Origin: Arthrobacter sp. H-02-3
Lineage (GTDB): Bacteria > Actinomycetota > Actinomycetes > Actinomycetales > Micrococcaceae
DNA length: 64,000 nucleotides
Assembly (NCBI RefSeq): GCF_003097355.1
Contig: NZ_PYUI01000004.1
Span: 124,001 to 188,000 of the forward strand
Direction: 5' to 3'
Shown piece by piece: positions 48,019 through 53,388 of the stretch. The notes below the pieces were generated by a model that saw nothing but the letters and a program-made list of their open reading frames with translations, searched no databases and was not told where the DNA came from. The position numbers were made by a program, and so were the translations under genes. Within the stretch, counting starts at the first letter, position 1; the number at the start of each line of letters is the position of its first letter.

Positions 48019-49866
48019 GTGGCACACCTGCTCGGCGGCGAGAACCTCACGGTCTCGTATGCAACCCGCACCGTCCTCGACGGCGTAACCCTAGGCCTGG
48101 AAGAGGGCGACCGGATCGGCATGGTGGGCCGCAACGGCGACGGCAAGTCGACGCTCATGCGCCTGCTGGCCATGCGCGCCACCCCGGATTCGGGCCGGGT
48201 GACCAAGCGCAGTGAAGTCAATATCGGCTACCTCGACCAAAGTGACGTCCTCGACGGCGACCTCACCGTCGGTGCGGCAATTGTCGGCGACAAGGCCGAC
48301 TACGAATGGGCCCGTAATCCGCAGATCCGCGAGGTGATGGGCGGACTCGTTTCCGACGTCGACTGGCACGCCAACGTGCATGCTCTCTCCGGCGGGCAGA
48401 AGCGGCGGGTGGCCCTGGCCAAGCTGCTGATCGAGGACCACGACGTCATCATGCTCGACGAGCCCACCAACCATCTCGACGTCGAAGGGGTCGCCTGGTT
48501 GTCCCGGCACCTGAAGACCCGCTGGCGGCCCAACCAGGGCGCCTTCCTCGTGGTCACCCACGACCGCTGGTTCCTCGACGAAGTGTGCAACAAGACCTGG
48601 GAAATCCACGACGGCATCATGGATCCGTTCGAGGGCGGCTACGCCGCGTACGTCCTGGCCCGGGCCGAACGCGACCGCTCCGCCTCCGTGATGGAAGGCA
48701 AACGCCAGCAGCTGGTCAAGAAGGAACTCGCCTGGCTGCGCCGCGGCGCCCCGGCCCGCACCGCCAAGCCCAAGTTCCGGATCGAGGCCGCCAACGCCCT
48801 GATCGCCGACGTCCCCGAACCGCGTGACTCGATGGCGCTGAGCAAGATGGCCACCGCCCGGCTCGGCAAGGACGTCCTGGACCTGGAAAACGTGTCTCTC
48901 GACTTCCTCGGCGGCGAACCCGGGCAGAAGCTCTTCGACAACATCACCCTGCGCCTCGCTCCCGGCGAGCGGCTGGGCCTGGTGGGCGTCAACGGCGCCG
49001 GCAAAACCACACTGCTTAAACTGCTCAATGGCGAAATTCAGCCCACCTCGGGCAAGGTCAAGCGCGGCAAGACCGTGGTCACCGCCGTCCTGACCCAGGA
49101 GGTCAAGGAGCTCGACGACGTCGCCGACCTGCGCGTCATCGAAGTGATCGAGCGGGAGAAGCGCTCCTTCAACGTCGGCGGCAAGGAGTTCACCGCCGGC
49201 CAGCTCGTCGAGCAGCTCGGTTTCACGAACCAGAAGCAGTGGACCCCGGTCAAGGACCTCTCCGGTGGCGAACGCCGGCGTCTGCAGCTCCTCCGGCTCC
49301 TCGTGGGCGAACCCAATGTGCTCATGCTTGACGAACCCACCAACGACCTCGACACCGACACCCTGGCCGCCGTCGAAGACGTCCTGGACGGCTGGCCCGG
49401 CACCCTTGTGGTGGTCAGCCACGACCGCTACCTGCTCGAACGCGTCACGGACCACCAGATGGCGCTCCTGGGCGACGGCAAGATCCGCGCCCTGCCGCGG
49501 GGCGTGGACCAGTACCTCGAGCTGCGCGAGTCGGCGCTGGCCGGCTCCACCATCACCGGCGGCGGAAACCCCGTCACGGCGGCCGGCGGGGGCTCCGGTG
49601 CGGGCTCCGGCTCCGCGCCGGCTGCCGGTGGCGCCTCCGAAGCGGAGAAGCGCGATGCCCGCAAGGCCAAGAACCGGATCGACCGGCAGTTGGGCAAGCT
49701 CAAGCAGCAGGAAGACAAGATCCACGCCCAGATGACGGCCGGGGCCGGGGACGCCAGCAAGTTCGATGAGCTTGCCGAGCTCAACAAGAAACTCCAGGAG
49801 CTCGCCGGCGAACGCGAAGCCCTCGAACACGAATGGCTCGAAGCCCTCGAGGTGCTGGGGGAGTAG
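48019..49866 (+). CDS. ABC-F family ATP-binding protein (Uup-like)
   Basis: 615 residues, two ABC domains and no membrane helices, with the linker typical of ribosome-acting ABC-F proteins. Walker A motifs are GRNGDGKSTLMRLLA and GVNGAGKTTLLKLL. The signature motifs are LSGGQKRRVALAKLL and LSGGERRRLQLLRLL, and Walker B is DVIMLDEPTNHLDVEG. A C-terminal coiled coil (about 545-615) after a Gly-rich linker resembles Uup. The start is GTG. It ends the ispE cluster. Its 3' flank is the unusual repeat array. Confidence 0.93.
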   Translation: MAHLLGGENLTVSYATRTVLDGVTLGLEEGDRIGMVGRNGDGKSTLMRLLAMRATPDSGRVTKRSEVNIGYLDQSDVLDGDLTVGAAIVGDKADYEWARNPQIREVMGGLVSDVDWHANVHALSGGQKRRVALAKLLIEDHDVIMLDEPTNHLDVEGVAWLSRHLKTRWRPNQGAFLVVTHDRWFLDEVCNKTWEIHDGIMDPFEGGYAAYVLARAERDRSASVMEGKRQQLVKKELAWLRRGAPARTAKPKFRIEAANALIADVPEPRDSMALSKMATARLGKDVLDLENVSLDFLGGEPGQKLFDNITLRLAPGERLGLVGVNGAGKTTLLKLLNGEIQPTSGKVKRGKTVVTAVLTQEVKELDDVADLRVIEVIEREKRSFNVGGKEFTAGQLVEQLGFTNQKQWTPVKDLSGGERRRLQLLRLLVGEPNVLMLDEPTNDLDTDTLAAVEDVLDGWPGTLVVVSHDRYLLERVTDHQMALLGDGKIRALPRGVDQYLELRESALAGSTITGGGNPVTAAGGGSGAGSGSAPAAGGASEAEKRDARKAKNRIDRQLGKLKQQEDKIHAQMTAGAGDASKFDELAELNKKLQELAGEREALEHEWLEALEVLGE

Positions 49867-50227
49867 TTCCTGACGGCCCGGGGGACATGCCCAGTGTGTT
49901 GGTGCTCAGCGGGTTCCGGCACGGCTGGACATGTCCCTCGGGTCACGACAAACCCTGAGGACATGCCCCTTGGCGCAGGCCAGGGATGGACATGCTCTCC
50001 GGTGCGCTCAGAGCCCTCGGGACATGCCCCGTGGTCCAGGCCAAGGCTGGGCATGTTCTCTCGTGTGCTCGGAACTCTCAGGACATGCCCCTTGCTGTCG
50101 GCCAGGGCTGGGCATGTTCCCCGGTGTGCCATGAACTCTCAGGACATGCCCCTTGCTGTCGGCCAGGGCTGGGCATGTTCCCCGGTGTGCTCGGAACCCT
50201 CAGGACATGCCCCTTGGTTTCGGCAAG

Positions 50228-50288
50228 GAATGGACATATTGGCCTCATGTCCACTCCTCGGGGCCGGCGGAGGGCATGTCCCAAGGAG
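50228..50288. repeat. Cap module A of the array
   Basis: 61-bp module with an inverted repeat TGGACAT (50231-50237), 9-nt loop, ATGTCCA (50247-50253), then CTCCTCGGGGCC and a decamer at 50272. It is nearly the same as module B 318 bp downstream. Confidence 0.9.
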
Positions 50289-50545
50289 CATTCGACGGCA
50301 TCGGCGCATTTCCCGTGAAGTGCTCAGTTGCTTCGCAGCCAGCTTGAATTGGCCATATCGCTAAATCCTGGGCACGCGGCTGGATAGGTCCCTTGTGAGG
50401 GCCAAGTCCGGTGTGAAGGCCACGGCCGGACGTGTTCCCCGGTGCGCTCATGACAGTCACGACATGTCCCGCGGTGCAGGCCAAGGCTGGACATATTCCC
50501 CGGTGCGCGCACAACCGTCAGGACACGCCCCTTGCTGCAGGCCAG

Positions 50546-50606
50546 AAATGGACATCTTGGCCTCATGTCCACTCCTCGGGGCCGAGGGAGGGCATATCCA
50601 GTGGAG
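50546..50606. repeat. Cap module B of the array
   Basis: Near-copy of module A: TGGACAT (50549-50555), 9-nt loop, ATGTCCA (50565-50571), then CTCCTCGGGGCC and the decamer GGGCATATCC at 50590. Confidence 0.9.
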
Positions 50607-50652
50607 TGGTCGATGGCCTGCTACCAGCCGGGTGGGCAAGACCTTGGGTCCT

Positions 50653-50852
50653 GCCCGGACTGGACATGTCCCGCGGAGCGCAGAGAACCCGCAGGACATG
50701 CTCCGTGGTGTAGGCCAAGGATGGACATGCTGGTGTTATGTCCATTTTCCGGGCCCGGACTGGACATGTCCCGCGGAGCGCTGAGAACCCGCAGGACATG
50801 CTCCGTGGTGTAGGCCAAGGATGGGCATGCTGGTGTTTTGTCCATTTCTCGG
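50653..50852. repeat. 100-bp direct duplication inside the array
   Basis: 50653-50752 is repeated at 50753-50852, about 95 percent identical (differences at 50682, 50725, 50738, 50748 and 50749, and near the end). Each copy has two decamers 32 bp apart and a hairpin module (50722-50744; the second copy at 50822-50844 has a decayed arm). Confidence 0.95.
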
Positions 50853-50942
50853 GGCCAGGGCTGGGCATGTCCCGTGGCGGCCAGCGAGCAGGGGCGATCC
50901 CGGACCTCAATCCAGCGCCGGACCTCACTCCACCCCGAGCCC

Positions 50943-51629
50943 TCACTCCTGGCTTCGGAGCTCAGGGTCCTTCTGCAGCCCGGTGAGCCCGTTCCAGGCC
51001 AGGTTTACCAGGTGCGCGGCGACTTCGCGTTTGTCCGGCGTGCGGCTGTCCTGCCACCACTGTCCGGTCATCGCGACCATTCCCACGAGCATCTGCGCAT
51101 ACATGGCCCCGTCCGCCGGGCTGAAACCGCGGCGGGCGAGTTCGTCCTCGAGGATGTGCTCCACGCGGGCCGTCACATGCGATAGCAGCGTGGAGAAGGC
51201 GCCCTCCGGCTGGGACGGCGGGGCGTCGCGCATGAGGATCCGGAAGCCGTCCGTCCGGTCCTCGATGTAGGTCAGCAGGGCCAGGGCCGCCCGCTCCACG
51301 AGGACGCGCGGCTTGGCGTCCTCGGACAGGGCATCGTTGACCGAGGTCAGCAGGATGTGGAACTCGCAGTCCACCACCTGGGTGTAGAGGCCTTCCTTGG
51401 AGCCGAAGTGCTCGTAGATCACCGGCTTGGAGACGCCCGCGGTGGCTGCGATTTCCTCGATGGTGGTGCCGTCCAGGCCGCGGAGTGCGAAAAGGCCCCG
51501 GCCGATGCCGATCAGCTGCGTGCGGCGCTGCGGGCCCGTCATACGGGGGCGGGGAACGTAGCCGGGCGCGCGGACAGGCCTGCCGCTACCGCCGTCCGCC
51601 CCGCCGGATGGGCCTGCACTCTTGCTCAC
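50943..51629 (-). CDS. TetR family transcriptional regulator
   Basis: 228 residues from the GTG at 51629. The N-terminal helix-turn-helix is RTQLIGIGRGLFALRGLDGTTIEEIAATAGVSKPVIYEHFGS, followed by KEGLYTQVVDCEFHILL and a C-terminal domain (ALLTYIEDRTDGFRILMRD) typical of actinobacterial TetR proteins of unknown ligand. The open frame extends to 51740, but the extension overlaps the tRNA promoter region and is not TetR-like. It reads toward the repeat array, which lies at its 3' end. A target is not evident. Confidence 0.9.
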   Translation of the reverse strand: MSKSAGPSGGADGGSGRPVRAPGYVPRPRMTGPQRRTQLIGIGRGLFALRGLDGTTIEEIAATAGVSKPVIYEHFGSKEGLYTQVVDCEFHILLTSVNDALSEDAKPRVLVERAALALLTYIEDRTDGFRILMRDAPPSQPEGAFSTLLSHVTARVEHILEDELARRGFSPADGAMYAQMLVGMVAMTGQWWQDSRTPDKREVAAHLVNLAWNGLTGLQKDPELRSQE

Positions 51630-51759
51630 AGCACCATCATGCCCTACCGCGAGCCCGTACCAGCCCGCAGGACCGCCCGTGCTTCGGACCCTGAGTCGCA
51701 CGAGCATCAACCTTCGTGGCAGAATTGGTTCTCGTGCCACAGGTCAAGCCCGGGCACGG

Positions 51760-51831
51760 TCCGCTCTGGTGTAATGGCAGCACCCCGGCCTTTGGAGCCG
51801 TGGAGTATAGGTTCGAGTCCTATGGGCGGAA
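51760..51831 (+). tRNA. tRNA-Gln(TTG)
   Basis: Cloverleaf read by eye: acceptor TCCGCTC (51760-51766) pairs with GGGCGGA (51824-51830, one G-U), anticodon loop CTTTGGA at 51790-51796 with anticodon TTG (51792-51794), T loop GGTTCGAGTCC, discriminator A at 51831. CCA is not encoded. It lies 42 bp before glmU. Confidence 0.93.
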
Positions 51832-51873
51832 CTGGCGAGACACACTGCGCAACCAAGCAAGGAGAGCCAACAC

Positions 51874-53388
51874 GTGAGCCCCGAGAACACTGGCCCAGCC
51901 GCCGTGATCGTCCTAGCTGCAGGGGCCGGTACCCGGATGAAATCCCGTACGCCGAAGATCCTCCATGAGATCGGCGGCCGCTCGCTGGTGGGCCACGCCC
52001 TCAACGCCGCCCGCAGTGTCCACCCGCGCGACTTGGCCCTCGTGGTCCGTCATGAACGCGACCTCGTGGCCGCCCACGTCGCAGCCCTCGACCCGGACGC
52101 CCTGATCGTGGACCAGGACGACGTCCCGGGCACAGGCCGTGCGGTCGAAGCTGCGCTGGAAGCCCTCGATGCCCTTCACCCCCAGGGACCGCTCAGCGGA
52201 ACCGTGGTTGTGACCTACGGCGATGTCCCGTTGCTCACCGGCGGCTTGCTCGCAGAACTCGTCGCCACCCACGAATCCGAGGGCAATGCCGTCACGGTCC
52301 TCACGGCCGTCCTCGATGACGCCACCGGCTACGGACGGATCCTCCGGGCAACGGACGGAACCGTCACTGGCATCCGCGAGCACAAGGACGCCACCGAGGC
52401 CGAACGCGGAATCCGCGAAATCAACTCCGGCATCTACGCCTTTGACGCCGCCGTGCTGCGCGACGCGCTGGTCCACGTCACTACCGACAACGCCCAGGGC
52501 GAGAAGTACCTCACCGACGTCCTGGCCCTGGCCCGCGCCGCAGGCGGCCGCGTCGCCGCCGTCGTCACCGAAGACCGCTGGCAGGTCGAAGGCGCCAACG
52601 ACCGCGTCCAGCTCTCCGCCCTCGGCGCCGAACACAACCGCCGCACCGTCGAGGCTTGGATGCGCGCCGGCGTGACGGTCGTCGATCCCGCCACCACCTG
52701 GATCGACTCCACCGTGACGCTCGACGAGGACGTCCGCCTCCTGCCCAACACCCAGCTGCACGGTGCCACCACGGTGGCGCGCGACGCCGTCGTCGGCCCC
52801 GACACCACCCTCACCGATGTCATGGTGGGGGAGGGCGCCACGGTGATCCGCACCCACGGCTCCGGCTCCACGATCGGTGCACGCGCCAGCGTCGGCCCCT
52901 TCACCTACCTGCGCCCCGGCACCGTCTTGGGCGAAACCGGCAAGATCGGCGCGTTCTATGAGACCAAGAACGTCACGATCGGCCGCGGCTCGAAGCTGTC
53001 GCACCTCGGCTACGCCGGAGACGCGGAAATCGGCGAGGACACCAACATCGGCTGCGGCAACATCACCGCCAACTACGACGGCGAGAAGAAGCACCGCACG
53101 GTGATCGGCTCCGGCGTCCGGACCGGCTCCAACACGGTCTTCGTCGCTCCGGTCCGGGTGGGCGACGGCGCCTACAGCGGCGCTGGCGCGATCATCCGCC
53201 AGGACGTCCCGGCCGGCGCCCTTGCCCTCTCCATCGCCAGGCAGCGGAACTCGGACGGCTGGGTTGCGGCCAACCGCCCCGGGTCCGTTTCCGCCGCCCT
53301 GGCCCAGTCCGCCGCCGCGGTCGAAACAGCCGCTGCGGGCGCCGCCCCAACTTCCTCCACTACTCCGGCACCGACAGAAGAGGGCTAG
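51874..53388 (+). CDS. glmU: Bifunctional UDP-N-acetylglucosamine diphosphorylase/glucosamine-1-phosphate acetyltransferase
   Basis: 504 residues. The N-terminal uridyltransferase has VLAAGAGTRMKSRTPKILHEIGG; the C-terminal half is a left-handed beta helix with GRGSKLSHLGYAGDAEIG and GCGNITANYDG, the acetyltransferase site. It makes UDP-GlcNAc for peptidoglycan and other glycans. AAGGAGAG 8 bp before the GTG start is a strong ribosome binding site. A Ala/Pro/Thr-rich tail of 40 residues follows the helix. prs starts 5 bp downstream. Confidence 0.96.
   Translation: MSPENTGPAAVIVLAAGAGTRMKSRTPKILHEIGGRSLVGHALNAARSVHPRDLALVVRHERDLVAAHVAALDPDALIVDQDDVPGTGRAVEAALEALDALHPQGPLSGTVVVTYGDVPLLTGGLLAELVATHESEGNAVTVLTAVLDDATGYGRILRATDGTVTGIREHKDATEAERGIREINSGIYAFDAAVLRDALVHVTTDNAQGEKYLTDVLALARAAGGRVAAVVTEDRWQVEGANDRVQLSALGAEHNRRTVEAWMRAGVTVVDPATTWIDSTVTLDEDVRLLPNTQLHGATTVARDAVVGPDTTLTDVMVGEGATVIRTHGSGSTIGARASVGPFTYLRPGTVLGETGKIGAFYETKNVTIGRGSKLSHLGYAGDAEIGEDTNIGCGNITANYDGEKKHRTVIGSGVRTGSNTVFVAPVRVGDGAYSGAGAIIRQDVPAGALALSIARQRNSDGWVAANRPGSVSAALAQSAAAVETAAAGAAPTSSTTPAPTEEG

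Follow-up and report, generated by a model that had tools for sequence, protein, structure and literature searches.

A 79-bp composite dyad element and its intergenic array in Arthrobacter sp. H-02-3: candidate binding sites of a putative dimeric protein

Described repeat families and the array in the window

REPINs, one of the closest described systems, are thought to spread and persist by means of the RAYT transposase. They consist of REP doublets which form hairpins, and in the GI type of P. fluorescens the doublet is inverted, with a fixed distance and a variable spacer (PMC3116915). BIMEs are likewise extragenic and are built of palindromic units placed at regular spacing in alternating orientation (PMC2817692). 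The GTAG- and CGTC-tagged REP superfamilies are found mostly between convergent or co-directional genes, downstream of coding regions, and the main text of the study describing them does not contain the name Arthrobacter (PMC3733652). In the main text of the RepRanger paper the genus occurs in one table row, for A. livingstonensis, and nowhere else (PMC12306157). Our literature search for the sequence and for Arthrobacter repeats, with supplementary files and most subscription papers outside its scope, found no description, and the family presented here is apparently undescribed. Among the matches listed, the decamer of this family led mostly to work on p53 and otherwise to unrelated subjects. 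The decamer is the consensus half-site of the p53 response element; this likeness is taken as a coincidence, the host being a bacterium with no shared biology.

The window analysed here is a stretch of 64,000 nucleotides of contig NZ_PYUI01000004.1. It carries 26 decamer or near-decamer sites, arranged in three blocks across 49883..50872, and all the 26 start coordinates given by an earlier sequence-only reading are correct. The motif GGRCATGYYC given in that reading fits 17 of the 26 sites exactly (11 fit the tighter GGRCATGYCC), and the remaining nine deviate from it by 1 or 2 positions, e.g. GGACATATTG at 50232 and GGACATCTTG at 50550; adjacent sites, described there as reverse complements of each other, are so only approximately. 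When one mismatch is allowed, GGRCATGYCC occurs 43 times in the window against 16.3 +/- 3.6 expected, a count reached in 0 of 100 shuffles, and 20 of these 43 matches fall inside the ~1.1 kb of 49867-50960. Block A (49951..50228) contains ~4.6 tandem copies of a 61-bp unit at 83% matches, with decamers alternately 32 and 29 bp apart, and block B (50413..50544) contains ~2.2 degenerate copies of the 61-bp unit at 78% matches. Block C (50653..50874) is formed by ~2.2 copies of a ~100-bp unit at 93% matches, with one composite element in each. The 61-bp period claimed for the whole array was found by Tandem Repeats Finder in the first two blocks only, the period of the third being 100 bp, and a larger 79-bp unit had been missed. 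The proposal that all sites lie near one face of the helix is weak by the arithmetic at 10.5 bp per turn, since 32 bp makes 3.05 turns but 29 bp makes 2.76 and 61 bp makes 5.8.

The flanking genes converge on the array, as had been noted earlier. The plus-strand gene at 48019..49866 ends 16 bp ahead of the array and encodes a protein with two ABC ATPase domains, presumably ABC-F-like. The minus-strand gene at 50943..51629 (its start being that of the earlier reading) encodes a TetR-family regulator and ends at 50943. By eye, some three short near-repeats of the type GGACCTCAATCC / GGACCTCACTCC / GCCCTCACTCC can be made out at window positions 50900-50950, in the space that separates the array from the TetR stop. 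A repeat protein encoded by the array is unlikely because the unit lengths of 61 and 100 bp are not multiples of 3. CRISPR was rejected from the sequence, as spacer diversity is absent, in agreement with the earlier reading. The copy number within the array is explained by local tandem duplication.

The composite element, its carriers and its positions

The larger unit was recognised from copies elsewhere in the same genome. It is a 79-bp composite whose outer decamers start 69 bp apart and enclose two half-sites, GGACATA-N7-TATGTCC, so that the consensus reads GGACATGYCC-N19-GGACATA-N7-TATGTCC-N19-GGRCATGTCC. In the middle site the two halves of the same pair are moved apart by 11 bp, roughly one turn of the helix, and a weaker CCRCG is found in the outward flanks. 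Profile R1, which is sequence-only and built from 28 copies, found four full copies in the window, plus looser and partial ones. Element 1 (50203..50281; outer decamers at 50203 and 50272, inner half-sites at 50232-50252) scored 61.5 bits and is itself one of the 28 rows of R1. Element 2 (50521..50599), with altered outer decamers, scored 49.9 bits, element 3 (50694..50771, 78 bp) 43.3 bits and element 4 (50794..50872) 49.5 bits, and a looser match of 36.7 bits at 49959..50056 spans two 61-bp units.

The inverted doublet stands at a fixed distance, as in REPs and REPINs. In a pattern search of collected loci with length limits of 77-81 bp, 175 of 186 distinct matches were exactly 79 bp long, nine were 78 and two were 80, chance loci such as L173 being still included in this count, as also in the counts of 152 clusters, of 605 decamers and of linker pairing. 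The 605 intergenic decamers matching GGRCATGYCC in the fetched loci comprise 482 of the GGACATGCCC type, 111 of GGACATGTCC and 12 of GGGCATGCCC; hence at least one perfect GGACA half-site is almost always present. One subgroup (L091:2185-2263, G373:C1:456933-457011 and G367:C1:182076-182153) differs from most copies in having a long, near-perfect inner stem, e.g. CGAACAGTGGACAGAAT-N3-ATTCTGTCCACTGTTCG. Further, L139:14-92, lying at the end of a contig, is perfectly palindromic over its 79 bp and may be an assembly fold-back.

In the genome of the window, the pattern gave 26 forward and 26 reverse matches (52 strand matches) against 0 for the reversed-pattern control, and these represent 43 places at ~26 intergenic loci, counted by eye. 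In the family scan, the exact pattern was positive in 16 of 395 genomes, all of them among the 77 of the same genus, and in 0 of 318 genomes from 31 other genera. The order scan (396 genomes, 386 outside the genus) gave a single outside match, in G779, which is without the inner core. The scan of named genomes found at least 115 loci; among the matches listed, 105 are Arthrobacter by title, 7 Pseudarthrobacter and 3 others, and 108 of the 115 passed a strict core test. In five of the seven failures among these listed matches, which belong to Arthrobacter or Pseudarthrobacter, about one base of the core is altered (by eye); the Caulobacter and Nannocystis matches lack the inner core and were taken as chance. 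The third outsider, a Ramlibacter MAG contig, has the true element, and the contig may be mis-binned.

Profile R1 was run on 33 chosen genomes of the genus (15 pattern-positive with several matches, G164, and 17 pattern-negative). Counting both strands and scoring at most 143 candidates per genome, 15 genomes had 32 to at least 142 matches, G282 had 30, G164 had 2 and 16 had none. G164, with one weak match by the exact pattern, was classed as a non-carrier. G282 is negative by the exact pattern and a carrier by the profile, which means that the exact pattern misses carriers. When the matches are halved for the two strands, with partial matches included, a carrier genome has ~15 to at least 70 elements. 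A virus, plasmid or phage origin was rejected, as viral contigs gave no match to the one exact pattern and plasmids and phages none to the window's array by blastn. Macrodomain clustering was set aside since copies are spread across three one-contig genomes (judged by eye), and replication polarity since the sampled skew in one genome was too weak for use.

The presence of the element follows descent. On a tree of 32 genomes, built from two genes of the window locus plus dnaX, carrier status (16 of 32) requires 3 changes, where shuffling gives a mean of 11. The carriers are found in the clade of the window, in another group (G282, G364, G390 and G394) and in G106. Upstream of the SRP RNA and dnaX genes, in a region fetched by DnaX and hence independently of the repeat, 13 of 15 carriers, as assigned by R1, have strict decamers within 1.4 kb, against 0 of 15 others. 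The two carriers without them are G106 and G282; the full element is present by pattern in 11 carriers, and four of the 15 non-carriers have 1-2 sites with one mismatch. In G364, G390 and G394 the array of this region sits behind an extra gene, so its arrival there may have been parallel. In the window's own intergenic region, strict decamers are found in 3 of 12 other carriers (G363, G367 and G372) and in 0 of 16 others. Sites of the element are common to several species, yet individual sites turn over.

The same locus bears on whether the array could be the operator array of the neighbouring TetR regulator, the protein which the earlier reading had named for a binding check. The gene adjoins the array and the 10-bp sites are palindromic, but close TetR orthologues are kept in 28 of 32 genomes, 16 of which are non-carriers (G164 included), there is no strict decamer at the locus in those 16 and in 9 of 12 other carriers, and most copies lie elsewhere in the genome. 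We consider this explanation very improbable. The ABC-protein/TetR intergenic region of some relatives holds other repeats. In L209, L216 and L217, for example, it has a different imperfect palindrome of ~100 nt. Of 121 genomes of the genus, 32 have 1-3 copies of its pattern GTCGCTTAGACACGNCGCA, and in several of them another copy, or else the TetR locus, is ~50 kb distant. In L223 and L226 the region has short direct-repeat arrays built on GATGTGAGAGA / CTCTCACATCCC, the orientation at one end being opposite to that at the other.

With respect to genes, 149 of 152 clusters (chance loci included) are free of overlap with a predicted protein gene, and an unbiased 400-kb sample of one carrier genome, at 83% coding, held 6 intergenic and 3 genic decamers. 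The 132 clusters with both neighbours known were convergent, co-directional and divergent in 59, 56 and 17 cases, against 24, 99 and 55 in the background, i.e. gaps of at least 100 bp in the same sample (p ~1e-9). In co-directional gaps the element is closer to the 3' end of the upstream gene in 51 of 56 cases. Gene positions came from a simple gene caller that ignores RNA genes. The dnaX copies of the window's own genome were thus entered as co-directional; they have a tRNA gene on the minus strand to one side and the SRP RNA gene on the plus strand to the other, and their setting is divergent. A search for a trans-acting gene beside the arrays, covering 392 flanking proteins in 106 clusters, pointed to no candidate among the largest clusters, which resemble ordinary housekeeping or metabolic genes (by eye).

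Constraint between species, duplex DNA and RNA hairpin

The inner half-sites lie outside the search patterns used to find copies and could be compared with the letters around them. In 45 cross-genome orthologous pairs, in which each element was used once, pairs were picked for low linker divergence and flanks were 87% identical, inner half-sites differ at 43 of 540 positions (8%) and linkers at 496 of 1710 (29%), the figure for the central seven bases being 86 of 315. The pair set including within-array pairs gave 55 of 720 for inner half-sites and 551 of 2280 for linkers. Moreover, at the dnaX locus of five genomes, pairwise differences were 6% in outer decamers, 12% in inner half-sites, 36% in linkers and 37-47% in flanks. 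The motif positions are held while the intervening letters drift at nearly fixed length. Recent neutral slippage without function, with the unit absent from relatives, had been named earlier as the outcome that would undo a functional reading. Tandem duplications inside the array are plain, but dispersed copies in 16 of 33 genus genomes, copies at shared sites in other species and the constrained site positions make it scarcely credible.

The invariant columns fit DNA and RNA recognition alike. The linker columns show mirror-symmetric preferences between the two sides, and linker covariation was not found, either as pairing within a linker (z -1.5) or between linker 1 and linker 2 (z +1.0). 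In alignment A2, which is A1 minus the chance row L173 and the odd row L138, the whole hairpin is 71.2% paired against 71.2% in shuffles and the linkers alone 52.3% against 52.4%. Variable decamer positions tolerate mismatch: C8 stands opposite A72, a mismatch, in 15 of the 93 elements, and T8-A72 is seen in 2. The predicted transcript fold pairs the outer stem in 85 of 88 elements and the inner stem in 63 of 88, with an MFE of -40.0 against -36.3 when linkers are shuffled; one linker swapped between elements gives -40.1.

Compensatory changes are thus not general, and the exceptions are weak. Inner stems are longer than expected in 8 of 89 elements (~1 expected), one of these being L139 at its contig end and maybe an artefact. 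On A1, two pairing measures weakly beat the shuffle control (16/500 and 7/500); the first signal was gone on the cleaned A2 (254/500), and the second measure is for A1 only. The A2 covariation score was higher in register than slid (0.168 vs 0.075-0.120), an excess which symmetric columns alone would yield. Column preferences that are symmetric and free of covariation are the trace expected of a dimeric protein reading double-stranded DNA, and recognition of the element as double-stranded DNA is favoured over a conserved hairpin.

These results weigh against the structured convergent RNA offered in the sequence-only reading, and against a bidirectional transcription terminator or mRNA 3'-end stabiliser acting as an RNA hairpin. 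The position of the elements, beyond stop codons and in convergent gaps, and their stable predicted fold would suit such a role. On the other hand, general covariation is absent, the count of terminator-like sites with a T-run in 49700-51100 is one for an expectation of 0.7, all 15 non-carriers have no element at the same dnaX site, and the dnaX copies of the window's own genome stand between divergent tRNA and SRP RNA genes. A terminator or stabiliser is hence improbable in our view. An Rfam RNA family was also rejected: in window positions 49000-52000, searched to E 1, only tRNA rose above its gathering score, two microRNA families on the array staying far below theirs, and the loci of six relatives gave tRNA only. 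Near dnaX, SRP RNA was also above its gathering score. No described repeat family was found by the Rfam and literature searches, in keeping with what the sequence-only reading had said.

Explanations and comparison with known repeats

Our study points to an array of binding sites for a putative dimeric or oligomeric protein at the borders of transcription units, a reading to which we give a probability of about 0.45. Sites of a dimeric DNA-binding protein, which had been one of the two earlier suggestions, fit best because the columns are dyad-symmetric without covariation and the site positions are constrained between species. The array is a locally expanded cluster of the 79-bp composite dyad element, whose copies are spread over intergenic sites in a part of the genus and follow descent. 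Each GGACA/TGTCC pair may be bound as double-stranded DNA by the putative dimer or oligomer, and the rigid 29-11-29 bp layout would let bound dimers touch. Arrays at convergent ends and beside promoters may insulate neighbouring transcription units, through supercoiling, read-through or local nucleoid structure; this role is suggested by the placement and by what has been proposed for REPs and BIMEs (PMC2817692, PMC3733652). The arrays grow as segments, for example the 61- and 100-bp units in the window, are duplicated in tandem.

The strongest rival to a binding-site array is a REPIN-like miniature mobile element, copied by a putative non-Y1 transposase or nuclease that recognises a long imperfect hairpin, with the 3'-end placement reflecting tolerated insertions. 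The inverted doublet with fixed distance and variable spacer is REPIN anatomy (PMC3116915), the predicted fold is a hairpin, other repeats fill the window's intergenic region in relatives, and there is one presence/absence case, in which ~110 bp between convergent stop codons (by eye) are present in two genomes and missing in a third, with flanks 87-89% identical. Of the two marks of a MITE, terminal inverted repeats and a target-site duplication, the element has inverted ends, and this one site shows no clear duplication of the target; the third genome may also have lost the element by deletion. Further, PF01797, the Y1/RAYT transposase domain, was found in 0 of 33 genus genomes, the control being positive in 5 of 14 with E. 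coli among them. Positions common to different species, compensatory changes that are not general and the lack of matches in viral contigs (exact pattern), plasmids or phages (blastn, window's array only) also speak against it. We regard a mobile element as possible, though on the unlikely side.

The binding-site reading can be extended to the whole chromosome, and this extension is tentative. Three-dyad elements, ~15 to at least 70 per carrier genome, would form a clade-inherited site system, kept at shared transcription-unit borders by a putative dedicated oligomeric DNA-binding protein missing in the non-carrier clades, i.e. a REPIN-like population without RAYT. A REPIN-like population persists here at positions shared across species, with no Y1 transposase found in 33 genomes. 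Either such repeats depend on some other protein family for their upkeep, or the host keeps them for a chromosomal function of the sites. Carriage within one genus is nearly all-or-none (16 carriers, 16 genomes without a match and one with a single weak match), which makes the partner findable by gene-content comparison and lets the question of whether such repeats are parasites or parts of the chromosome be tested in soil bacteria.

In comparison with REPs and REPINs, the Arthrobacter element is likewise extragenic and present in tens to hundreds of copies per genome. Its conserved ends are inverted and keep a fixed distance (71 bp in the REPIN, 69 bp here), its spacer is variable and tandem clusters occur; compensatory changes, which are called common in REPINs, are not general in it (PMC3116915). 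It differs also in its extra inner half-site pair. The tagged REP superfamilies share its placement, whereas neither the GTAG/GTGG nor the CGTC tag is present in its consensus, as judged by the column frequencies of the elements and their outward flanks (PMC3733652). It is not filed as a REPIN or BIME member because the RAYT, tag and compensatory-change features are lacking, the last apart from the weak exceptions of long inner stems and two A1 measures. The BIME sequence is unrelated, and binding of gyrase, IHF and Pol I is a feature of BIMEs; the array resembles them in its regularly spaced, extragenic palindromic units of alternating orientation (PMC2817692). Hence, the family is REPIN/BIME-like in build, without RAYT.
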